Shown: piece by piece, positions 28,260 through 50,303 of the stretch | Position numbering within the stretch: position 1 is the first letter of the stretch | How the letters are laid out: each line of letters starts with the position of its first letter | Assembly: GCA_021851885.1 (NCBI GenBank) | Contig: JAJZBS010000010.1 | Coordinates: forward strand, 1-52,231 | Direction of reading: 5' to 3' | DNA: 52,231 bases | DNA from: Actinomycetes bacterium | Lineage (GTDB): Bacteria > Actinomycetota > Acidimicrobiia > Acidimicrobiales > JAMCQF01 | Position numbers and translations under genes: made by a program | The notes under the pieces: model-generated | Database searches by the model: none | What the model saw: the letters and a program-made list of their open reading frames with translations, nothing else | Told to the model about the DNA's origin: nothing

Positions 28260-28325
28260 TACGAAGGCAGGTGTTCCCGAGGGGGATGCGGTGGCGGGGC
28301 CGCAGGCGGAACGAACGGAGTGTGC

Positions 28326-31300
28326 ATGACAACGACGAGGCCGTCGCCCGCGGCGAGTGCGGTCGACCCGCAGACGTTCAGCCTGGATGACAAGTACCGG
28401 GTGGAGGAGGGGACGGTGCTGCTCACCGGGGTCCAGGCCCTGGTGCGGCTGGTCTTCGACCAGGTGCGGGCCGACCGGCGCGGCGGCCTGCGCACCGCTG
28501 CGTTCGTCAGCGGCTACCCGGGCTCGCCACTCGGCGGGTTCGACCTGGCCCTCCAGCGCACCGGCCGCTACCTCGCCGAGCACGACGTCACCTGGGTGCC
28601 GGGGGTCAACGAGGACCTCGCCGCCACTGCCGTGTGGGGCAGCCAGCAGGACCACCTGGCGCCCCTCGCCCACCACGACGGCGTGGTGGGCATGTGGTAC
28701 GGCAAGGCACCGGGGGTGGACCGCTGCGGGGACGTCTTCCGCCACGCCAACCTCCACGGTGTGGGGCGCAACGGCGGCGTGGTGTGCGCTGCCGGTGACG
28801 ACCCGACGTCGAAGAGCTCGACGTTGCCGAGCGCCAGCGAGATCGCCTTCTACGACGCGATGATCCCGGTGCTGGTGCCGGGCAGTCCCGGCGAGATCCT
28901 GGATCTCGGCCGCCACGCCTTCGAGATCTCGCGGTTCTCGGGCTGTTGGACGGCGTTGAAGATCGTGACCAGCGTGGCCGACGGGCTCGGCATGGCCGAG
29001 GTCGGTCCATGGCGCCTCCAGACGTCGCACCCGACGCTCGAGTTCGACGGCCGACCGTGGCGCCACGTGCAGCAGCGCCGGCTGTTCGTCCCCGAGTCGC
29101 TCGAGATGGAGCGCGATCTCGCCTACCGCCGGCACGAGGCGGCCAAGGCATACGCCACGGCCAACGGGGTGAACCGCATCACCGTCGATCCCGCCGATGC
29201 CTGGCTCGGGATCATCGCTGCCGGCCGCACGTACTTCGAGGTCCGTGACGCCCTCGCCCAGCTCGGGCTGGACGACCGGGAGCTGGTCCGCCTCGGCGTG
29301 CGCCTCCTGAAGCTCGGCATGGTCTATCCGCTTGAGGAGCGGGCCGTCGAGACGCTGGCCCGTGGCGTGGACGAGGTCCTGGTGATCGAGGAGAAGCGGA
29401 GCTTCGTCGAGCAGTTCGTGCGGGAGATCCTCTACGCCCGGTCCGGGGCGCCGCGCCTGGTGGGCAAGCGGGATGAGCGTCGGGAGGTGCTCGTGCCGGC
29501 GGACGGCGAGCTCACCGCCGACCGGCTCGTTCCCGTTCTGGCCGCCCGGCTGGGCACGCGCCTCGACCTCCCCCGACCTGCTGGGGCGCCCCCGGGGCCC
29601 AACCGGAGCGCACCGGTGGCCGTCTCGCTCGGCCCGATACGTGGGGCGTCGGATCCGCCCCCGGCACGCACCGCCCACTTCTGCAGCGGGTGCCCGCACA
29701 ACCGCTCCACGATCGACGTCTCCGGCTCGCCGGTGGGCGGGGGCGTCGGCTGCCATGCGATGGTCCTGTGGATGGACCGCGGCGTCACCAGTTACACCCA
29801 CATGGGTGGTGAGGGCGCCCAGTGGATCGGCCGGTCGCACTTCACCGACACCCCCCACATGGTGCAGAACATGGGCGACGGCACCTTCTTCCACTCGGGG
29901 AGCATGGTGGTGCGGGCGGCCGTCGCCTCCGGGGTCAACATCACCTTCAAGATCCTCTACAACGGCGTCGTGGCCATGACCGGCGGCCAGGACCCCACCG
30001 GCCAGATGACCGTGCCGCAGCTGTGCCGGTTCCTGGAGATCGAGGGCGTGCAGCGGATCATCGTGTGCAGCGAGGAGCCCGGCAGGTACAGGCACCGGGA
30101 CAACCGCCTGCCGCGGTCGGTGACCCTGTGGGACCGGGACCGGCTGGAGGACGCCGAGCGGGAGCTGGCCGGCACCGACGGCGTCACCGTCCTCGTCTAC
30201 GACCAGGGGTGCGCCGCCGAGATGCGCCGGCTCCGCAAGCGGGGTCGCCTCCCGGAACGGACGACCCGGGTCGTGATCAACGAGCGGGTGTGCGAGGGCT
30301 GTGGCGACTGCGGGGCGAAGAGCAGCTGCCTGTCCGTCCACCCGGTCGAGACCGAGTTCGGTCGCAAGACCCGCATCCACCAGTCATCGTGCAACACCGA
30401 CTACAGCTGCCTGGAGGGCGACTGCCCCTCGTTCGTCACCGTGCGGGCACCGGCCCCCGGCCGCCGCGCCCGCCGCTCCGGGGACGGCCCAGCCGGGCTG
30501 CCCGCACCGCCGCCACCACCGCTCGCTCCCATCGGGCCCGACGGCTTCAACCTCTACATGGCCGGGGTGGGCGGTACCGGGGTGGTGACGGTCAACCAGG
30601 TGGTGGCCACCGCAGCAGCGCTCGACGGGCTCAGCGTGACGGGCCTCGACCAGACCGGGCTGTCGCAGAAGGGCGGTCCCGTCGTCTCCCACCTCCGCCT
30701 GGCGGCCGCGCCCGTCGAGACGTCGAACGCGGTGGGGCCAGGTGCCGCCGACTGCCTGCTCGCCCTCGACCTCCTCGTGGCACTGGACGGTAAGAACCTG
30801 GTGCGGGCCGACCCGGCCAGGACCGCCATCGCGGCATCGTCCTCCGTGGTGCCGACGGCCCAGATGGTCATCGACAGTTCGGTCGCCTACCCGGCACCGG
30901 CCACCCTCATGCCCGCCCTCGAGGAGGCGTCACGGCCGGGTGCGTTCGTGCACCTCGACGCACTGCGGGTGGCCGAGGAGCTCTGCGGCGACCACATGGT
31001 CGCCAACATGGTCGTCCTGGGCGCGGCACTCCAGGCCGGGTTCCTGCCCCTGCAGCCCGCCTCGATCCAGCGAGCCGTCGAATTGAACGGCGTCGCCGTC
31101 GAGCGGAACATGCGGGCGCTCGCCGCCGGCCGCCTGGCGGTGGCCGACCCGGCCCGCCTGGCCAAGGCGCTCGACCGCGGAGCCGCCCGCCACCAGCGGG
31201 TCTCCCGCCGCGACGGCCGCGCTGCCGACCGCGCCGGTGCGCTGCTCGCCGGAACCCGCCTCGAGGGCGAGCTGGCCCGGGTGGTGCTGCGCCGGGCGGC

Positions 31301-31907
31301 CGAGCTCATCGACTACCAGGGGGAGCGGCTGGCACGTCGCTACGTGGAGGTGGTGCTGTCCGCCGCCGACGCCGAACGGGAGACCGGCACGGGATCGACC
31401 CGCCTCAGCGAGACGGTGGCGACGACCCTCTTCGCCCTGACCGCCTACAAGGACGAGTACGAGGTGGCCAGGCTCCATCTGCGCCCAGAGTTGCGCGATG
31501 CGGTTGCGTCAGCGGTGCCGGGTGCGACGGGTGTCCGCTTCCGGCTCCACCCACCGCTGCTGCGATCCCTGGGGATGCGTTCGAAGATCGCCATCCCCGC
31601 CCCGGTGGCCGTGCCCATGTTCGCCGTCCTGCGCTCGATGCGGGGCGTGCGGGGCACCCCGCTCGACCCCTTCGGCCACAGCCGCGTCCGGCGCCTGGAG
31701 CGGTCCCTGGTCGAGGAGTACACGGAGCTGGTGCGTGGACTGGCCCGGGACCTCACGCCGGAGCGCCTCGACGCCTCGATCGAGCTGGCGGGACTGGCTT
31801 CCATGGTGCGTGGGTACGAGACGATCAAAGAGGCCAATGCGGCCGCGTACCGCAGGGCTCTCGCTGAACGGCTCGCCGCCCTCGACGCAGCCATTCCAGC
31901 GCGGTGA
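28326..31907 (+). CDS. Indolepyruvate ferredoxin oxidoreductase-like protein (single fused chain)
   Basis: SGYPGSPLGGFD, GVNEDLAATAVWGSQQ, HMGGEGAQWIGRSHFTD, MGDGTFFHSG, Fe-S segment VCEGCGDCGAKSSCL, gamma-like domain MAGVGGTGVVTVNQV. Confidence 0.92.
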   Translation: MTTTRPSPAASAVDPQTFSLDDKYRVEEGTVLLTGVQALVRLVFDQVRADRRGGLRTAAFVSGYPGSPLGGFDLALQRTGRYLAEHDVTWVPGVNEDLAATAVWGSQQDHLAPLAHHDGVVGMWYGKAPGVDRCGDVFRHANLHGVGRNGGVVCAAGDDPTSKSSTLPSASEIAFYDAMIPVLVPGSPGEILDLGRHAFEISRFSGCWTALKIVTSVADGLGMAEVGPWRLQTSHPTLEFDGRPWRHVQQRRLFVPESLEMERDLAYRRHEAAKAYATANGVNRITVDPADAWLGIIAAGRTYFEVRDALAQLGLDDRELVRLGVRLLKLGMVYPLEERAVETLARGVDEVLVIEEKRSFVEQFVREILYARSGAPRLVGKRDERREVLVPADGELTADRLVPVLAARLGTRLDLPRPAGAPPGPNRSAPVAVSLGPIRGASDPPPARTAHFCSGCPHNRSTIDVSGSPVGGGVGCHAMVLWMDRGVTSYTHMGGEGAQWIGRSHFTDTPHMVQNMGDGTFFHSGSMVVRAAVASGVNITFKILYNGVVAMTGGQDPTGQMTVPQLCRFLEIEGVQRIIVCSEEPGRYRHRDNRLPRSVTLWDRDRLEDAERELAGTDGVTVLVYDQGCAAEMRRLRKRGRLPERTTRVVINERVCEGCGDCGAKSSCLSVHPVETEFGRKTRIHQSSCNTDYSCLEGDCPSFVTVRAPAPGRRARRSGDGPAGLPAPPPPPLAPIGPDGFNLYMAGVGGTGVVTVNQVVATAAALDGLSVTGLDQTGLSQKGGPVVSHLRLAAAPVETSNAVGPGAADCLLALDLLVALDGKNLVRADPARTAIAASSSVVPTAQMVIDSSVAYPAPATLMPALEEASRPGAFVHLDALRVAEELCGDHMVANMVVLGAALQAGFLPLQPASIQRAVELNGVAVERNMRALAAGRLAVADPARLAKALDRGAARHQRVSRRDGRAADRAGALLAGTRLEGELARVVLRRAAELIDYQGERLARRYVEVVLSAADAERETGTGSTRLSETVATTLFALTAYKDEYEVARLHLRPELRDAVASAVPGATGVRFRLHPPLLRSLGMRSKIAIPAPVAVPMFAVLRSMRGVRGTPLDPFGHSRVRRLERSLVEEYTELVRGLARDLTPERLDASIELAGLASMVRGYETIKEANAAAYRRALAERLAALDAAIPAR

Positions 31908-32448: not shown

Positions 32449-33705
32449 ATGATGACCTTCAATGGCCACCGACGTCGGCGAGCAGCCGCAGCGGTGACGG
32501 CGCTGGCAGTCGGATCGCTGTTGGCAGCGTGTGGCAGCACGACGTCGAACGCGTCCGGTTCCGGTTCCGGTTCGAGCTCGAGCTCGAGCTCGGTCCCCGG
32601 GATCACGTCGAACACGATCACGATCGGCGCGACGGAGCCCATCACCGGCAAGGCCGCCACCGCCGGGCAGGGCCTGGAGGCGGGCATCAAGATCGCCACC
32701 CAGTACATCAACGCCCATGGCGGCGTGAACGGCAAGAAGATCAACGCCATCATCCTCGACGACGGGTTCATCCAGTCGCGCGAGATCGCCAACATCCGCC
32801 AGCTGGTGAGCCAGGACCACGTGTACGCGATCGTGGACCCCGCCGGTTCGCAGGGCATCGCCGGCACGTGGGACTTCATGAAGCAGGCGGGGACGCCGAT
32901 GTGGGGACCCATCTCGCCCAGCGACCCCAAGCTGCCCAACGTGTACCTGCTCGTGGCGTCCAGGACGGCGCAGCAGGAGGTGGCCATCGACTACTTCGCC
33001 AAGCAGGGCCTGACCCGTATCGCCGCCATCGGAGAGGATGACGACCTCGGCCTGTCCCTGAAGGACGCCCTGGCCCAGCAGGTGCCGAAGCATCCGGGCA
33101 TGAAGGTGGTCGCCAACGAGACGCTTCCGGTGTCGACCTCCGACGTCTCGGCCGCCGTGCTGGCCGTGAAGAACGCCAACCCGCAGGCGCTCATCATCAG
33201 CACCAACAACACCTCGGTCGGCCTCATCCTGAAGGAGATGGGCAACCTCGGCCTGCACATCCCGGCGTACGCAGACCAGGGTGCGGCCAACACCGGTGGC
33301 GTCGGCGCCGTCGGCCCGGCCGGCAGTGCTGCCAACGGGTTCCTGGGCGGTCTCCAGGTGGACCTGCCCACCAGCAACACCCAGGCTGTCCAGACATGGC
33401 GTGCCCAGGCGCAGCAGTACAGCGGACCGCAAGGCCTGAGCGCATTCTCCCTGCAGACCTACATGCAGGAGATGGCGTTCGTCGAAGTCCTCAAGCGCAT
33501 GGGATCGGACTACAGCTGGTCCAACTTCCAGAAGACGGCCAACGGTCTGGCGAGCAACCCCATCACCCTGGGTGCCCTCCCGCCGATCGCCTGCGGACCG
33601 CTCCCCGACGGCCACACCTGTGGAAACCAGTCGGAGATCGCCAAGTTCGATGCGACAACCCAGACATGGTCGGTGATCCAGGGCTTCACCGCTCCCCAGA
33701 GCTAG
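32449..33705 (+). CDS. Branched-chain amino-acid-type ABC substrate-binding lipoprotein
   Basis: Lipobox LLAACG, Ser/Gly linker, TITIGATEPITGKAATAGQGLEAGIKIATQYINAHGGVNGKKI. Confidence 0.92.
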   Translation: MMTFNGHRRRRAAAAVTALAVGSLLAACGSTTSNASGSGSGSSSSSSSVPGITSNTITIGATEPITGKAATAGQGLEAGIKIATQYINAHGGVNGKKINAIILDDGFIQSREIANIRQLVSQDHVYAIVDPAGSQGIAGTWDFMKQAGTPMWGPISPSDPKLPNVYLLVASRTAQQEVAIDYFAKQGLTRIAAIGEDDDLGLSLKDALAQQVPKHPGMKVVANETLPVSTSDVSAAVLAVKNANPQALIISTNNTSVGLILKEMGNLGLHIPAYADQGAANTGGVGAVGPAGSAANGFLGGLQVDLPTSNTQAVQTWRAQAQQYSGPQGLSAFSLQTYMQEMAFVEVLKRMGSDYSWSNFQKTANGLASNPITLGALPPIACGPLPDGHTCGNQSEIAKFDATTQTWSVIQGFTAPQS

Positions 33706-33713
33706 TCGTCGGA

Positions 33714-33726
33714 GCCCGGACCGGGC
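33714..33726 (+). terminator. Short GC hairpin after the substrate-binding gene
   Basis: GCCCGG-A-CCGGGC 9 nt after the stop codon; no U-tract. Confidence 0.3.
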
Positions 33727-33741
33727 CTCGAACGAGATGAC

Positions 33742-33804
33742 GGGGTGGGGTCGACCCGTGGATCCGGAACGCATCGCCGGATACCACGGGTCGGTCCCAC
33801 CTCC
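33742..33804 (+). other. Long imperfect hairpin between livK-like and livH-like genes
   Basis: GGGGTGGGGTCGACCCGTGGATCCGG / CCGGAT(A)CCACGGGTCGGTCCCACCTC: 26 pairs, one bulged A, three G-U, 9-nt loop. Confidence 0.8.
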
Positions 33805-33849
33805 GACTCGTACCGAGCCTGGTCGAGGGGCGAGAGCCGCGGAGGCAGC

Positions 33850-34713
33850 ATGCTGCAGTACATCATCAACGGCCTGCAGAGCGGCAGCTGGTACAGCCTG
33901 CTCGCAGTGTCGATCGTCATCGTCATGAAGGCATCGGACGTGCCGAATTTCGCCGTGGCCAACATGGGCCTGGTCGGCGCCTTCCTCGCCTACTCCTTCG
34001 TCAGCGCCCACCTGCCCTTCGGGGTCGCCGTGGTGCTCGGCCTACTCGGGGCCGCCCTGTTCGGGGTGATCATCGACCGGGCGGTCATCCAGCGCCTGGG
34101 GGACAAGGGGCACTTCCCCCTGCTGCTGATGACCATCGGCATCAGCCTCAGCCTGGCCGCCGCGCTCGAGCTGATCTGGGGCACCAACTCCCTGTCGCTC
34201 AACGCGCCGTGGTCGAACAAGACGGTCCACCTGGCTGGCCAGATCATCAACTGGGACGGCATCGTCACCATCGCCACCGGGCTGGTCATCGCCATCGCCA
34301 TCACCTGGTTCTTCCACACGACCGCCGGCGTGCGCATGCGCGCGGTGGCCGAGAACCGGAGTGCGGCCCGCCTGGTCGGCGTCCGCATCAGCCGGGTGTC
34401 CGGACTGGCCTGGGGGATCGGCACGGCAGTCGCCGCCCTGGCCATGATCCTCCAGACCGAGTCGTCGGTACTCTCCTACACGGCCGGCGACGCGCTCCTC
34501 GTCCCCGCGTTCGTGGCCGCCACCGCGGCCGGGTTCACCTCGCCCGTCGGCGCGTACGTTGCCGGGCTGGTGATCGGCGTGCTCGAGAACCTGACCGGCG
34601 GGTACATCTCGACCGCGCTGCAGTCGGTGGTCGCCCTCGTCGTCGTCGTGCTCATCCTGCTCCTGCGCCCGAGTGGCTTCACCCGCACCGCCCTGGCGCG
34701 GCGCGAGGTGTGA
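33850..34713 (+). CDS. Branched-chain amino-acid-type ABC permease (LivH-like)
   Basis: MLQYIINGLQSGSWYSLLAVSIVIVMKASDVPNFAVANMGLVGAF; GGAGG upstream of the ATG. Confidence 0.92.
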   Translation: MLQYIINGLQSGSWYSLLAVSIVIVMKASDVPNFAVANMGLVGAFLAYSFVSAHLPFGVAVVLGLLGAALFGVIIDRAVIQRLGDKGHFPLLLMTIGISLSLAAALELIWGTNSLSLNAPWSNKTVHLAGQIINWDGIVTIATGLVIAIAITWFFHTTAGVRMRAVAENRSAARLVGVRISRVSGLAWGIGTAVAALAMILQTESSVLSYTAGDALLVPAFVAATAAGFTSPVGAYVAGLVIGVLENLTGGYISTALQSVVALVVVVLILLLRPSGFTRTALARREV

Positions 34714-34732
34714 GGCCGGAGAGTTGCCTGAC

Positions 34733-35839
34733 ATGCCCCCTCACGATCTGCTCCCCGACGGCAACCGGCGTGGCCGTCGTTGGGCGAAGCTGGCGTCGCT
34801 GATCGTCCTGATCACCCTGCTCGCCGTGGTCCCGCCGGCGATGAACAGCTACGACCAGTACCTGATCACCCTCACCCTCGTCTACGCCATCACCACCCTC
34901 GGCCTCAACGTGCTCATCGGCTGGACCGGTCAGCTGTCGCTGGCCCACGCAGGGGTCTTCGGGCTCGGCGCGTACCTCAGCACCATCCTGATCCAGCACG
35001 GGTGGGGCTTCGTCCCCTCGCTGCTCGTCGCCGGGCTCGGCTCGGCGATCGTCGGCGGGCTGGTCGTCTTCCCGGCCCTGCGCTTCAGCGGTTTCACCCT
35101 CGCCGTGGCCTCACTGGCGTTCGCGTCGGTCATCGTCCAGCTCTTCGACAACGGTGGCTCGGTCACCGGCGGTGGCGGTGGCCTCGCCGTGCCCGTGTTC
35201 CAGTTCAGCGGGCTCAGCCAGACGATGAGCACCTACTACGTGACGCTCATCTCCACCGTCCTCTGCTTCGTGGTGGCGCACCGCATGCGCCACCTGCGGT
35301 TCGGAAGGGTGGCGTTCTCCATCCGCGACACGGAGATCGCCGCCGTCGTGAGCGGGATCAGGGTGGTCCGCTACAAGGTCTTCGTCTTCGCGTTCGCCGC
35401 CTTCCTCGGCGCCATCGGCGGAGCCCTCTACGCCCAGCTCGAGACGTTCATCTTCCCCGTCATGTTCAGCACCAACACCCTGGTGCTGATGCTCGTCATG
35501 CTGTTCCTCGGCGGCGCCAGCTCGCTGTACGGCCCGATCTTCGGTGCCATCTTCGCCGTGGTCATGGTCGAGCTCCTCCAGTCGTTCGGCAGCTACCAGG
35601 ACCTCCTCTACGGGCTCCTGCTCATGCTGGTCATCGGTGTCCTCCCGGGGGGCATGGCGTCCCTGCCCGAGCGACTCCGGACCAGCCACCTCCTCGGGCG
35701 CGCCGTCCGGGGCGTGGCGTCACGGTTCGGCCGCGGCCGTCAGGACGAGGCGACGGCCGCCTCCCCGGTTCCACCGACCGCTACCGGGTCGTCGCTGGTG
35801 GACGACCCGGGCGACGGCGTCGAGAGCGGGGTGGCCTGA
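34733..35839 (+). CDS. Branched-chain amino-acid-type ABC permease (LivM-like)
   Basis: GLNVLIGWTGQLSLAHAGVFGLGAYLS, GLSQTMSTYYVTLIS, RDTEIAAVVSGI. Confidence 0.92.
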   Translation: MPPHDLLPDGNRRGRRWAKLASLIVLITLLAVVPPAMNSYDQYLITLTLVYAITTLGLNVLIGWTGQLSLAHAGVFGLGAYLSTILIQHGWGFVPSLLVAGLGSAIVGGLVVFPALRFSGFTLAVASLAFASVIVQLFDNGGSVTGGGGGLAVPVFQFSGLSQTMSTYYVTLISTVLCFVVAHRMRHLRFGRVAFSIRDTEIAAVVSGIRVVRYKVFVFAFAAFLGAIGGALYAQLETFIFPVMFSTNTLVLMLVMLFLGGASSLYGPIFGAIFAVVMVELLQSFGSYQDLLYGLLLMLVIGVLPGGMASLPERLRTSHLLGRAVRGVASRFGRGRQDEATAASPVPPTATGSSLVDDPGDGVESGVA

Positions 35840-36648
35840 TGGCCGAGTCGCCAGCGAAGGGGACAGGAGACGTGGGCGGCAGCATCGCCTGGGACGACGT
35901 GAGCGTCGCCTTCGGCAGCAACCAGGTGCTCGACGGGGTCTCGCTGTCGTTCTCATCCGGTTTCAACGGCCTGATCGGGCCCAACGGTGCCGGGAAGACC
36001 ACGTGCTTCAACGTCGCCAGCGGGTTCGTGGCGCCGAGCTCGGGGCAGGTCAGACTGAACGGGACCGACGTCCGCGGCCTCAGTGCGGTCAAGCGGTCCC
36101 GGGCGGGGCTGGCCCGAACCTTCCAGACCCCCCGCCTGGTGCTCGAGATGACCGTTCTCGAGAACGTGCTGGTCGGCACCGAGCGGCAGCATCGCGCCGG
36201 GCACGTGCGCGAGGTGCTCAGCTTCCCCCGTGCCCGCCGCGAGGCGAGGGAGCTGGCCGACATGTCGATGGACCTGCTCCGGAGGTTCGGGCTCGAGGGG
36301 GCGGCCGGCCAGCGTGCCGGGTCGCTGTCGTTGGGGAGCCAGAAGCTGGTGGAGGTGGCCCGGGCCCTCGCCACCCAGTCGACCGTGCTCCTCCTGGACG
36401 AGCCGGCTGCCGGCCTCAGTGCGTCGGACACCTCGGCGATGGTCGACGGGCTGCACCAGCTGGTCGAGGGGACGTCGCTGTGCGTCGTGATCGTCGAGCA
36501 CGACCTCCAGCTCATCATGAGCCTGTGCTCGTCGGTGGCCGTGCTCGACTTCGGGCGCATCATCTCGCAGGGGACCCCGGAGATGATCCTGCAGGACAAG
36601 GCAGTGGTGGACGCGTACCTGGGAGCCGGCTTTGCTACTGGAGATTGA
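35839..36648 (+). CDS. Branched-chain amino-acid-type ABC ATPase (LivG-like)
   Basis: GPNGAGKTTCFN, ARTFQTPRLVLEMTVLENVLVG, LSLGSQKLVEVARAL, LLLDEPAAGLS, VEHDLQLIM. Confidence 0.94.
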   Translation: MAESPAKGTGDVGGSIAWDDVSVAFGSNQVLDGVSLSFSSGFNGLIGPNGAGKTTCFNVASGFVAPSSGQVRLNGTDVRGLSAVKRSRAGLARTFQTPRLVLEMTVLENVLVGTERQHRAGHVREVLSFPRARREARELADMSMDLLRRFGLEGAAGQRAGSLSLGSQKLVEVARALATQSTVLLLDEPAAGLSASDTSAMVDGLHQLVEGTSLCVVIVEHDLQLIMSLCSSVAVLDFGRIISQGTPEMILQDKAVVDAYLGAGFATGD

Positions 36649-37342
36649 GAACGTCGTCGGCGGCTACGGCCGGGTGGAGATCCTCCACGGCGTGTCGCTC
36701 GGGGTCGAGGAGGGCGAGATCGTCAGCATCCTCGGAGCCAACGGCGCGGGTAAGACCACCCTGCTCCGGACGGTCTCGGCGCTGCTGCCCGCGTGGTCCG
36801 GTTCCATCCGCTTCGCCGGCAAGGAGCTCGTCGGGATGAAGACGGAGTCGATCGCCGCCCGCGGTCTCGGCCACCTGCCCGAGGGCCGGGGCATCTTCCA
36901 GATGCTCACCGTCCAGGAGAACTTCGACGTCGCCGCGTCGCTGCGCCGGGACTCGCGGGCCGAGGTCCGCAAGGACATCGCCCGGCTGCTCAGCGTGTTC
37001 CCGGCGCTCACCTCCAAGCTGAAGCACCCGGCGGCCCTCCTCTCCGGTGGGCAGCAGCAGATGCTCGCCCTGGCGCGGGCGCTGCTCGGCCGGCCCAAGC
37101 TGCTGATGATCGACGAGCTCTCGTTCGGGCTGGCCGCGGTGCTGGTCGAGGAGCTGTTCACCACCATCCAGCAGCTGCGCGACCAGGGAACCACCTTCCT
37201 CATCGTGGAGCAGAACGCCGGCGTCCTGGAGATCGCCGATCGTGTCTACGTGATGCGCGGCGGTCGCAACGAGGTGGCCGGCGCCGCATCCGAATTCGCC
37301 GAGAACCGCGACCTCCTGGTCCGCTCGTACCTGGGCGGATGA
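36632..37342 (+). CDS. Branched-chain amino-acid-type ABC ATPase (LivF-like)
   Basis: TTG start overlapping the previous gene; GANGAGKTTLLRTV, LSGGQQQMLALARALLG, LLMIDELSFGLA, VEQNAGVLEIADRVYVM. Confidence 0.93.
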   Translation: MLLEIENVVGGYGRVEILHGVSLGVEEGEIVSILGANGAGKTTLLRTVSALLPAWSGSIRFAGKELVGMKTESIAARGLGHLPEGRGIFQMLTVQENFDVAASLRRDSRAEVRKDIARLLSVFPALTSKLKHPAALLSGGQQQMLALARALLGRPKLLMIDELSFGLAAVLVEELFTTIQQLRDQGTTFLIVEQNAGVLEIADRVYVMRGGRNEVAGAASEFAENRDLLVRSYLGG

Positions 37343-37379: not shown

Positions 37380-38546
37380 GTGGTGGGTCCCTCCCGCCGG
37401 CTCGGCCGGACCGTCAACGTGGCCGACGTGATGGCACTGGGCAGGCGGCGACTGCCCCGACTGGTGGCGGAATTCATCGACGGGGGCGCCGAGGACGAGG
37501 CGACCGTCGCCGCCAACCGGCGTGCGTTCGCCGACTGGGACTTCGCCCCCCGGGCCCTGGTGGGGGTGGCGCGCCGTTCGTTGGGTGTCACCGTCCTGGG
37601 CGAGCCGCTCGCCCTGCCGGTGGTGCTGTCCCCGACCGGCCTGGCCCGTCTCGCCCACCGTGAGGGCGAGGCGGCGGCGGCACGGGCGGCCGGGCAGGCG
37701 GGCACCGCCTTCACCCTGTCCACCGGATCGAGCTGCTCGATCGAGGAGGTGGCGTCGGCCGCCGCCGGGCCCCTGTGGTTCCAGCTCTACCTCTGGCGGG
37801 ACCGGGCACTGGTCGAGCAGCTCCTGGACCGGGCGGCCGCAGCCGGCTACCGGGCCCTTGTCCTGACGGTCGACGTTCCCGTCATGGGGCGCCGGGAGCG
37901 GGACGTCCGCAACGGCATGACCATCCCACCGCGCTTCACGCCGGCCACCGCCCTCGACGTCCTGCGCAGACCGGCATGGCTGGCCGGCCTGGTGCGCGGC
38001 CCGAGCATCACCTTCGCCAACCTGGTCGGCGTGCCGGGACGGGGTCGGGGCGCCGCCGAGCTCGGCCGCTACACCAACGAGGAGCTGGTCAATCCGGGTG
38101 CGGACTGGGAGACCCTGGCGTGGGTGCGGCACCGGTGGAGCGGGCCGCTGGCGGTCAAAGGCATCCTCCGCCCCGACGACGCCCGCCGTGCCGTCGATGC
38201 CGGCGCCGACGGGATCGTGGTCTCCAACCACGGAGGCCGCCAGCTCGACGGCGCCCTCCCGGCGTTGCGTGCGCTCCCGGCGGTGGTGGACGCGGTCGGT
38301 GGTCGGGCCGACGTGATCCTCGACGGCGGCGTCCGGCGCGGTGCCGACGTGGCCAAGGCGCTGGCCCTGGGGGCGAAGGCCGTCTCGATCGGGCGTCCCT
38401 ACCTGATGGGACTGGCCGCCGCCGGCGAGCCCGGTGTGGCGGCGGTCCTCCGAATGCTGAGGGACGAGCTCGACTCGACCCTGGCCCTGCTCGGGTGCCC
38501 GTCTCCCTCCGGGCTCGACCGCGACCTGCTCGTACCGGCCGGCTGA
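37380..38546 (+). CDS. FMN-dependent alpha-hydroxy-acid oxidizing enzyme
   Basis: PVVLSPTGLARLAHREGEAAAARAAGQAGTAFTLSTGSSCSIEEV, LTVDVPVMGRRERDVRNGM, VSNHGGRQLDGALPAL, ILDGGVRRGADVAKALALGAKAVSIGRPYL. Confidence 0.92.
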   Translation: MVGPSRRLGRTVNVADVMALGRRRLPRLVAEFIDGGAEDEATVAANRRAFADWDFAPRALVGVARRSLGVTVLGEPLALPVVLSPTGLARLAHREGEAAAARAAGQAGTAFTLSTGSSCSIEEVASAAAGPLWFQLYLWRDRALVEQLLDRAAAAGYRALVLTVDVPVMGRRERDVRNGMTIPPRFTPATALDVLRRPAWLAGLVRGPSITFANLVGVPGRGRGAAELGRYTNEELVNPGADWETLAWVRHRWSGPLAVKGILRPDDARRAVDAGADGIVVSNHGGRQLDGALPALRALPAVVDAVGGRADVILDGGVRRGADVAKALALGAKAVSIGRPYLMGLAAAGEPGVAAVLRMLRDELDSTLALLGCPSPSGLDRDLLVPAG

Positions 38547-38551
38547 GCCCG

Positions 38552-39523
38552 TCAGGCCTCCGCCGGCGCGGCGCTGATCCGGCGTACCCCGACCTGTTGG
38601 GTCAGGAGCACGAGGGCGACGACGGTCGACGCGGCAGGGACGTCCACGCCGAGCCGGCCGGCCAGGTCGACGACCGAGCCGGTGATGGCGCCGATCTCGA
38701 CCTGGCGTCCCTGGATGATGTCGGTCGCCATCGACGTGTAGTGGTCCCCGGTGCCCTCGAAGGTGGCCACTGCATGGGCCCAACTGGCGTCGCGGTCGAC
38801 GGGCACACCGGCGGCGTGGGCGACGGCGACGACCTCGTCGTGGAGGCGCTCGACCAGGCCCCGGGCCGGTTGCTCTGCCCAGGTGGCACCGACCGTCGCG
38901 CCGAGCAGCGCGCTGACCGGCCCCATGACGGCCAGGGCCAGCTTCTTCCAGATCTCCTGGTCGATCGCGTCGGTCGGCGACACCGGGAGGCCGGCCGCAT
39001 CCATGTGCGCGGCCAGGGCCCGGGCGCCCTCGAGGGTGCCGCCGGGTGCTCGGGGGGGGCCGACGTGCGTCACCGACGCCCCCCGGGCGGTGCTGTCGCT
39101 CACGTAGACGACCCCGGGTGCCCGCCGCTCGGCACCGATGGTGGTGAGCCCGGGCAGGACCCGCTCGCTGCCGAACGAGGCTGCGAGCACGGTGTCGTTC
39201 CCCAGCCCGTTCTGCACGGTGGTGACCCATGTGCCCGGGCCGACAAGCGGCTCGGCCGTCCGGGCGGCCGCAGCGGTGTCGAATGCCTTGGTTGCCACGA
39301 TCACGTGGTCGCAGTGGCCGACGGACGCCGGATGGACGGTCGCCTCGAGCGGCGTGTGCCACGTGCGTCCGTCGGGCAGGTCGATGCGCAGCCCGTCGGT
39401 GGTGATGGCGTCGACGTGTGCGGGCGACCGACCGACCAGGACCACGTCGGAGCCCGACCTGGCCAGCAGGCCGGCGATCGCCGTACCGATCCCTCCTGCC
39501 CCGACGACGGCGATCGTTGCCAT
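38552..39523 (-). CDS. Ketopantoate reductase (ApbA/PanE) family protein
   Basis: MATIAVVGAGGIGTAIAGLLARSGSDVVLVGR, VATKAFDT, VQNGLGND, IWKKLALAVMGPVSALLG. Confidence 0.88.
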   Translation of the reverse strand: MATIAVVGAGGIGTAIAGLLARSGSDVVLVGRSPAHVDAITTDGLRIDLPDGRTWHTPLEATVHPASVGHCDHVIVATKAFDTAAAARTAEPLVGPGTWVTTVQNGLGNDTVLAASFGSERVLPGLTTIGAERRAPGVVYVSDSTARGASVTHVGPPRAPGGTLEGARALAAHMDAAGLPVSPTDAIDQEIWKKLALAVMGPVSALLGATVGATWAEQPARGLVERLHDEVVAVAHAAGVPVDRDASWAHAVATFEGTGDHYTSMATDIIQGRQVEIGAITGSVVDLAGRLGVDVPAASTVVALVLLTQQVGVRRISAAPAEA

Positions 39524-47914: not shown

Positions 47915-48535
47915 CTAGGCGCCGGCCGGCGTCCCGGTGGCGCTCGCCAGGGCTCCCGTCGCCATCTGGCGCAGGAGCCCCGACATTGCGGTGCGGTCGA
48001 GGCGGGCGCTGTGGGGCGTGGAGTTGATGAGGCCGAACACGGCATGGGCGGCGGCCCGTGCCGTGTCGTCGTCCACCGGACGGTACAGGGCGCGGATGGC
48101 GTCCACCCAGATCTCGACGTACTGGCGCTGGAGCCTGCGCACCGTCCGCTGCTCGGGGCCGGTCAGGCTGGCCAGGTCCCGGCTCTGGACGGTGATGAGG
48201 GCCGGGTTCTCCAGGGCGAAGGAGACGTGCCAGTCGATCAGGGAGTCGAGGGCCCCCTCCGGGTCGACGGCGGCCTCGACCCGTACCCGGCCGCCGTCGA
48301 GCAACGAGCGGCTGATCCCGACCAGCAGGGCGGCCAGCACGGCGTCCTTGCTCTCGAAGTAGCGGTAGAGGGCCGGGCCGGTCAGTCCCAGGGCGGAGCC
48401 CAGGTCGTCGATCGACACGCCGTGGAAGCCGCGCTCGGCGAACAGCGGGGCGGCGACCTCCAGGATCTGGTCACGCCGCGATCCGCCCGGGTCGGGTGCG
48501 GGGGCGGCGGCCGGCTTGCGGTCGGCACGGGGCAC
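47915..48535 (-). CDS. TetR/AcrR family transcriptional regulator
   Basis: DQILEVAAPLFAERGFHGVSIDDLGSALGLTGPALYRYFESKDAVLAALL. Confidence 0.94.
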   Translation of the reverse strand: MPRADRKPAAAPAPDPGGSRRDQILEVAAPLFAERGFHGVSIDDLGSALGLTGPALYRYFESKDAVLAALLVGISRSLLDGGRVRVEAAVDPEGALDSLIDWHVSFALENPALITVQSRDLASLTGPEQRTVRRLQRQYVEIWVDAIRALYRPVDDDTARAAAHAVFGLINSTPHSARLDRTAMSGLLRQMATGALASATGTPAGA

Positions 48536-48552: not shown

Positions 48553-48581
48553 TGGACGGAACCGTGAACGATCGCTAACAT
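48553..48581 (+). promoter_or_regulatory. Predicted promoter of the acyl-CoA carboxylase operon
   Basis: TGGACG (48553-48558) - 17 bp - TAACAT (48576-48581). Confidence 0.5.
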
Positions 48582-48606
48582 GAGGCCAGCCATTAACGAT
48601 CGTTAA
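48564..48606. promoter_or_regulatory. Two TetR-type operators
   Basis: GTGAACGATCGCTAAC (48564-48579) and perfect palindrome TTAACGATCGTTAA (48593-48606). Confidence 0.75.
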
Positions 48607-48628
48607 CGGCTGCCGGCTGTGGGAGGCT

Positions 48629-48677: not shown

Positions 48678-50303
48678 ATGACAGCCGGCCACGACTACCC
48701 GGTGCTGGCGTGCTCGGCGCCGACCCACGGCGACGCCTTCGATGCCAACGCCGCCGCCCACGGCGCGCTGGCCACCGAGCTCACCGACCGCCTCGAACGG
48801 GCGCGGGCCGGTGGGCCGGAGGAGGCGAGGGTGCGCCACCAGTCCCGGGGCAAGCTCCTGCCCCGTGCCCGCATCGACCGCCTGCTCGACGCCGGGTCGC
48901 CCTTCCTGGAGCTGTCGCCCCTGGCCGCCACCGGGATGTACGGCGACGAGGCCCCGGCGGCGGGGATCATCACCGGGATCGGGCGCGTGTCCGGCCGGGA
49001 GTGCGTGGTGGTGGCCAACGACGCCACCGTCAAGGGCGGCAGCTACTACCCGATGACGGTGAAGAAGCACCTCCGGGCCCAGGAGGTGGCACTGGCCAAC
49101 CGGCTGCCGTGCATCTACCTGGTCGACTCCGGCGGCGCCAACCTCCCCCGCCAGGACGAGGTCTTCCCCGACCGCGACCACTTCGGCCGCATCTTCTACA
49201 ACCAGGCGACGATGTCGGCACGCGGCATCCCCCAGCTGGCCGCCGTCCTCGGCTCGTGCACGGCCGGCGGCGCCTACGTGCCGGCCATGAGCGACGAGGC
49301 GGTCATCGTGGCCAACCAGGGGACGATCTTCCTGGGCGGCCCGCCGCTGGTGAAGGCGGCCACCGGGGAGGTGGTCACCGCCGAGGAGCTCGGGGGCGGG
49401 GACGTCCACGCACGCATCTCGGGGGTCACCGACCACCTGGCGACCGACGACGCCGACGCCCTGGCCACCCTCCGCTCCATCGTCGCCACCCTGCCGCCGA
49501 AGGGCCCGCCCCCGTGGGGGGTGGAGGCACCCGAGGAGCCGGCCGCCGATCCGGGCGAGCTGGCCGGCGTGGTGCCGGCCGACACCCGCACCCCCTACGA
49601 CGTCCGCGAGGTCGTCGCCCGCATCGTCGACGGGAGCCGGTTCCTCGAGTTCAAGGCCGAGTACGGCCGGACGCTCGTCACCGGGTTCGCCCGCATCCAC
49701 GGCCACCCTGTCGGGATCGTGGCCAACAACGGCGTCCTCTTCAGCGAGTCCGCCCTGAAGGGCGCCCACTTCATCGAGCTGTGCGACCAGCGCCGGATCC
49801 CGCTCGTGTTCCTGCAGAACATCAGCGGGTTCATGGTCGGGCGCGAGTACGAGGCGGGGGGCATCGCCAAGCACGGCGCCAAGATGGTCACCGCGGTGGC
49901 CTGCGCCCGGGTGCCGAAGTTCACCGTCGTCATCGGCGGGTCGTTCGGTGCCGGCAACTACTCGATGTGTGGGCGGGCCTACTCGCCCCGGTTCCTGTGG
50001 ATGTGGCCAAACGCCCGCATCTCGGTCATGGGGGGTGAGCAGGCGGCTTCGGTGCTGGCCACCATCCGCCGGGACCAGCTCGAGGCGTCGGGCCAGGCGT
50101 GGCCGGCGGACGAGGAGGAGGCGTTCAAGGCGCCCATCCGCGACCAGTACGAGCTCCAGGGCAACCCGTACTACGCCACCGCCCGGCTGTGGGACGACGG
50201 GGTCATCCACCCCACCGACACCCGCACCGTCCTCGCCCTCGGACTGGCGGCCGCCGCCAACGCGCCGCTCGACCCCATCGCCTACGGCACCTTCCGGATG
50301 TAG
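48678..50303 (+). CDS. Biotin-dependent acyl-CoA carboxylase carboxyltransferase subunit (methylcrotonyl-CoA carboxylase beta-like)
   Basis: [126 protein letters not shown]. Confidence 0.93.

Follow-up and report, generated by a model that had tools for sequence, protein, structure and literature searches.

An intercistronic hairpin without a U-tract that probably favors binding-protein mRNA over permease mRNA in an actinobacterial Liv operon

The window, a stretch of 52,231 nucleotides, carries an unusually strong hairpin between the gene for a substrate-binding protein (SBP) and the permease gene that follows it in a Liv operon. From its sequence, this intercistronic hairpin probably raises SBP mRNA over LivHMGF mRNA, and it would most likely do so as a 3′ decay barrier of the malE–malF type. 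The SBP is the component of an ABC importer that is needed in excess. A role of the post-SBP hairpin in stoichiometry appears, on the same grounds, likely, and for the decay-barrier route in particular the chances are about even.

The SBP gene (32449–33705, + strand, with a TAG stop codon at 33703–33705) is an open reading frame, confirmed by the gene model, for a LivK-like lipoprotein of 418 amino acids (Peripla_BP_6; Pfam PF13458, E = 3.5e-46). It is followed by genes for a LivH-like permease (33850–34713; PF02653, E = 6e-28), a LivM-like permease (34733–35839; PF02653), a LivG-like ATPase (35839–36648; ABC_tran and BCA_ABC_TP_C), and a LivF-like ATPase (36632–37342), the last three assigned from Pfam matches and gene models. 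All five genes are co-directional on the + strand (32449–37342). The SBP–LivH gap of 144 nt is the sole long one among the transporter genes; the later genes overlap or almost touch. The likely start codon of livH is ATG 33850, at the position where a homologue begins (MLRQVISGLESGSWY), and an N-terminal extension from GTG 33745 through the hairpin was rejected, as it has no counterpart in homologues. The gene for an FMN-dependent α-hydroxy-acid dehydrogenase (37380–38546, + strand; PF01070, E = 2e-140; gene model) probably ends the transcription unit, the next gene being convergent at 38552. Just 5′ of the Liv operon, positions 28320–31907 encode a long 2-oxoacid:ferredoxin oxidoreductase-like protein (TPP_enzyme_C, POR, and DUF6537) that resembles indolepyruvate ferredoxin oxidoreductase, a neighbor that suggests amino-acid catabolism.

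The main hairpin occupies positions 33742–33803 of the + strand, as seen in sequence, folding, and counterparts in relatives. Its 5′ arm (33742–33767), the 9-nt loop AACGCATCG (33768–33776), and its 3′ arm (33777–33803, with A33783 bulged) form 26 pairs, three of them G·U. The first-pass annotation had described precisely this arrangement of pairs, bulge, and loop between the SBP and LivH-like genes, and sequence and folding agree with it exactly; only its end coordinate, 33804, lies one base beyond the 26-pair register. The hairpin is placed 36 nt past the SBP stop codon and 46 nt ahead of the LivH start. The stem by itself folds with −49.1 kcal/mol, and the addition of two short outer helices (33735–33812, a 78-nt segment) gives a minimum free energy of −53.2 kcal/mol and a z-score of −6.35 against 200 dinucleotide shuffles, none of which (0/200) folded equally well. 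On the 3′ side, the stem is followed by CGACTCGT with two U in 8 nt, which bears out the earlier statement that a U-tract is absent.

Between the SBP stop codon and the main hairpin lies a short inverted repeat, GCCCGGACCGGGC (GCCCGG-A-CCGGGC; 33714–33726, + strand; −7.0 kcal/mol alone), previously described as a smaller hairpin. The repeat exists and could form a hairpin of its own, but over the whole 144-nt gap the most stable fold (−89.0 kcal/mol, z = −5.27) pairs the letters of the repeat with 33817–33831. In that fold one extended stem is predicted around the main hairpin (33719–33824, + strand, with 33719–33736 pairing with 33807–33824), preferred by ∼9 kcal/mol over the fold in which the small hairpin stands separate (−79.8 kcal/mol). 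This enclosing stem is a prediction only, and the covariation evidence given below does not cover the outer part. The Shine–Dalgarno sequence GGAGG of livH (33841–33845, + strand) follows it, and pairing probabilities predict positions 33841–33844 to be mostly unpaired. A 27-nt DNA match in one other genome (G026) spans only the small inverted repeat, lies at a non-orthologous place, and was taken as chance.

With a GC content of 69%, and since two related junctions have no hairpin, a chance structure has to be considered. A looser hairpin criterion gave no information in such GC-rich DNA, and a strict stem score (GC 3, AU 2, GU 1, at most two defects) was applied to both strands instead. Against a background of sampled stretches of the same genome, which total 342 kb rather than the whole genome, the main hairpin ranks first (score 62, runner-up 48). 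Among the 62 co-directional gaps of 40–200 nt in this sample, the second-best score is 32 and the median 20. This rank, the z-score of −6.35, and a position that is conserved with covariation make chance a highly improbable origin of the hairpin, and for the class of junctions it is already refuted. The RNA pairing score is higher on the + strand (62) than on the opposite strand (39). This advantage was not used as proof, because the asymmetry is not general among relatives, where the sense strand is stronger in 13 cases and the antisense strand in 11.

Being palindromic and intergenic, the hairpin might be what is left of a mobile palindromic element, REP/BIME-like or of another type, and such a remnant had been suggested together with a genome-wide search for further copies. 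That search found a single copy, with all other matches in the genome at chance level, and thus none of the multiple related copies that characterize REP/BIME elements. In 59 relatives the best matches to the element are short and close to chance level, and the orthologous sites carry unrelated hairpins, so that descent from a mobile element can be practically set aside. A DNA-level palindrome, such as an operator, was also rejected, since the variable sequences at the counterpart sites argue against a shared protein site. Palindromes of that kind are found elsewhere. Two similar ones, CCATTAACGATCGTTAACGG and AACCGTGAACGATCGCTAACAT, lie at 48557–48615 of the window, between the divergently oriented genes for a TetR-family regulator (47915–48535, − strand) and a carboxyl transferase (48678–50303, + strand), and are very probably a TetR operator pair. 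At another locus of the same genome (L095, 7993–8038), the near-perfect palindrome GACGACCATGGTAGCAGAACTGCTACCATGGTCGTC, with 16-bp arms, stands at a gene edge and resembles an operator in the DNA more than an element of RNA.

To follow the junction across relatives, LivH homologues were gathered from 59 close relatives as well as from 397 genomes each of the order and the phylum. The gap was analyzed wherever a homologous SBP stands upstream of LivH, with the fold test applied to gaps of at least 40 nt. Of the other orthologous SBP–LivH junctions in the taxonomic order that have such a gap, 24/26 fold with z ≤ −2 relative to shuffles (25/27 with the window included, median −5.08). Conservation of the structure, the absence of which had been named as a point against the first proposal, is therefore observed. 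The junctions with a hairpin span families f26, f35, f56, and f57 of the order, in addition to family f1 of the window. At a further junction outside the 27 (L114), the choice of start codon shortens the gap, and a hairpin is present when the sequence is read further. One locus (L080, from the metagenome-assembled genome JA4.bin61) is 100% identical to the window over 8,861 bases and contributes no evolutionary information.

The hairpins of the relatives start mostly 3–16 nt past the SBP stop codon, and their letters vary widely, as in GTTGGTCCGGGACC... (L110) and GGAGGCCGTGGGGCTAGCC... (L122) or in GGTGGGGCGGGGGTCC... (L052) and GGGTGTGGGG... (the AT-richer L033). The orthologous sites thus carry different hairpin sequences that mostly cannot be aligned with the window hairpin, which has no alignable homologue. 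In genus g58, two hairpins, one small and one large, stand in tandem, a layout that resembles that of the window. Six loci of this genus (L034, L126, L127, L129, L130, and L133) possess an extra conserved structured segment before LivH (CCCGGCTAG...). At one junction (L032), with the closest LivH within the order, a 62-nt gap has no hairpin (z = +0.75), and at another (L134) the gap is 3 nt long and also without a hairpin, indicating that the hairpin is dispensable for the operon. A third junction (L116) folds weakly (z = −0.78).

The hairpin might alternatively be a site at which RNase III, or another endonuclease, splits SBP mRNA from livHMGF mRNA, with halves that differ in stability. The RNase III gene is present in the genome, and 26 nearly continuous base pairs are of sufficient length for the enzyme. 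Most counterparts comprise only 14–20 pairs, however, and the stem alone is conserved, which leaves a processing site improbable.

Compensatory change was scored in ten hairpins of genus g37 that could be aligned without forcing. In their 17-pair stem, 94.1% of the cells are paired and 7/17 pairs show two-sided changes, compared with a mean of 2.4 such pairs in shuffles, of which 1/500 reached the observed count. When the partner was moved by 1–3 columns as a slid control, 14–49% of the cells were paired, with 0–3 two-sided pairs. With RNAalifold, the g37 set yields six two-sided pairs, and six sequences of genus g58 yield ten. These counts are not independent events, because the sequences are related, but the several different pair types at single positions argue for repeated compensation. 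Since the window hairpin has no alignable homologue, the covariation applies to its counterparts rather than to the letters of that hairpin. Loops and outer sequences vary among the hairpins, so that the structure itself, rather than an aptamer or a protein site, appears to be maintained. A riboswitch or Rfam element was rejected because the loops are not conserved and the Rfam search was negative: in a covariance-model search of the window and seven related loci, no family scored above its gathering threshold. A ligand- or protein-binding switch is likewise unlikely, as only the stem and its place are kept.

Hairpins of this kind are also found after other SBP genes. SBP genes of PF13458, PF00497, and PF13416 were taken from genomes across the order, and the fixed 120 nt after the stop codon were scored, automatic start-codon choice being unreliable in SBP_bac_3/8 loci. 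Scores of at least 35 were reached by 33/88 SBP genes and 12/525 control genes (odds ratio 26, Fisher p = 3e-21), with an exact effect size that is uncertain because the controls come from two genomes only (G000 and G175). In the second of these genomes, a member of genus g37 of which 360 kb with 69 short co-directional gaps were sampled, blindly save for one stretch, two of the three strongest gap hairpins belong to SBP–permease junctions of unrelated importers. One is the orthologous junction, and in the other an SBP_bac_3 gene is followed by a BPD_transp_1 permease gene. Many of the scored SBP genes close an operon or are followed by no clear permease gene, and U-less hairpins stand after the latter too, indicating that such hairpins mark the 3′ ends of SBP mRNAs generally, inside operons and at their ends. 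In genome G175 (L170, 7706–10321), near-identical strong U-less hairpins (TCGGTGCCCCGGGCC...) stand after both of two neighboring genes that encode secreted LPXTG-like proteins, and such hairpins may thus mark other exported proteins as well. We tentatively suggest, at somewhat less than even chances, that in this order U-less post-SBP hairpins are a general and repeatedly re-made stoichiometry element of at least three unrelated importer families, whose letters turn over fully while the hairpin and its position persist, and which functions without the U-tract required by textbook terminators.

The classical stabilizer between malE and malF is a multicopy REP element, whereas the window hairpin is single-copy and intergenic. 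Like the malE–malF type in Escherichia coli (PMC5927463), the window combines co-directional SBP and permease genes with a stable intervening hairpin, well above background and without a uridine tract, and with an SBP that is needed in excess. In the differentially decaying ABC operons of E. coli, it is the SBP segment that is stabilized in every case, by hairpins with no U tract after them (PMC5927463). Many of these structures lie inside coding regions and their stabilizing effect was measured, whereas for the window hairpin such an effect is predicted from sequence.

The main rival has the same outcome, more SBP than permease, at a different step. The hairpin would be a leaky internal terminator of the U-less (I-shaped) kind, which only part of the RNA polymerases pass to enter livHMGF. 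This reading, which we consider rather unlikely, draws on Ruminiclostridium cellulolyticum, where low-U stem-loops with long GC-rich stems follow SBP genes as internal terminators that end 20.7–96.1% of the transcripts (PMC9045158). The window resembles these cases in that its SBP gene is followed by a long GC-rich stem-loop with few U and is separated from the permease genes by a long gap (144 nt). Where SBP and permease genes of R. cellulolyticum are closely linked, transcript levels do not differ significantly (PMC9045158), a situation paralleled by the relative (L134) that has no hairpin in a gap of 3 nt. However, the clostridial stems have −10 to −38 kcal/mol, mostly with a U-rich tract, and an 11-bp optimum (PMC9045158) that the 26-bp stem far exceeds. 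The window stem, at −49 kcal/mol alone, shows little U enrichment and no 3′ U-rich tract, even a reduced one (CGACTCGT, two U in 8 nt). The relatives likewise have no U-tract after their stems: for the 20 stems that score at least 30, the following 8 nt contain on average 2.15 U, with 1.54 expected from composition and a maximum of 4.

The terminator reading draws, too, on GC-rich actinobacteria. In mycobacteria, I-shaped terminators without U have been described at most 50 bp from the stop codon, while Rho-dependent termination is the dominant mode there and whether a U-tract is needed is under dispute (PMC12288462). Terminators in Streptomyces combine the most stable hairpins with 3–4 U in 10 nt (PMC12207403), and 3′ ends with U-poor hairpins there may be intrinsic or Rho-dependent ends trimmed back to the hairpin (PMC12207403, PMC8269248). 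With the I-shaped and HS-U-lack 3′ ends (PMC12288462, PMC8269248), the window hairpin shares a strong, U-less, GC-rich stem within ∼50 nt of the stop codon, the distance in the I-shaped definition (PMC12288462). The U-less hairpins after SBP genes without a clear downstream permease also fit termination. The I-shaped and HS-U-lack ends are described mainly as transcript ends, whereas the window hairpin lies within an operon, before four more transporter genes.

We favor the 3′ decay barrier because only the stem and its place are kept, no U-tract is present, and the SBP is needed in excess, with a precedent in E. coli. Transcription is assumed to begin 5′ of the SBP gene and to continue through SBP-livHMGF; both this co-transcription and the direction of the expression difference are inferred. 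The hairpin would form just past a ribosome ending translation at the stop codon of the SBP gene. Cleavage within the permease part, or Rho-dependent ends there, would open the RNA to decay, and 3′–5′ exonucleases such as PNPase would degrade it back to the stem and halt. A stable, hairpin-capped SBP mRNA would remain while livHMGF mRNA decays, and the binding protein would exceed the translocator. Genes for PNPase, RNase III, and Rho are found in the genome, so that each of the routes considered is possible. The earlier proposal of a cap or stabilizer of SBP mRNA, or an attenuator of read-through, fits the position-specific conservation, the compensatory change, and the enrichment after SBP genes, comparative evidence that does not by itself tell stabilization from leaky termination.

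E. coli and Clostridia already provide examples of the principle, and the order-wide, sequence-independent conservation may be the part that is new to specialists. No description of post-SBP hairpins for this order was found in the literature searched, a search that most subscription journals lay outside. Only for a few organisms is it understood how one operon supplies many binding proteins per translocator. A structure that persists as its sequence changes offers a clean and testable case in GC-rich actinobacteria, from a little-studied, uncultivated lineage, and the junction could decide the dispute whether U-less hairpins end transcription or merely protect RNA 3′ ends.
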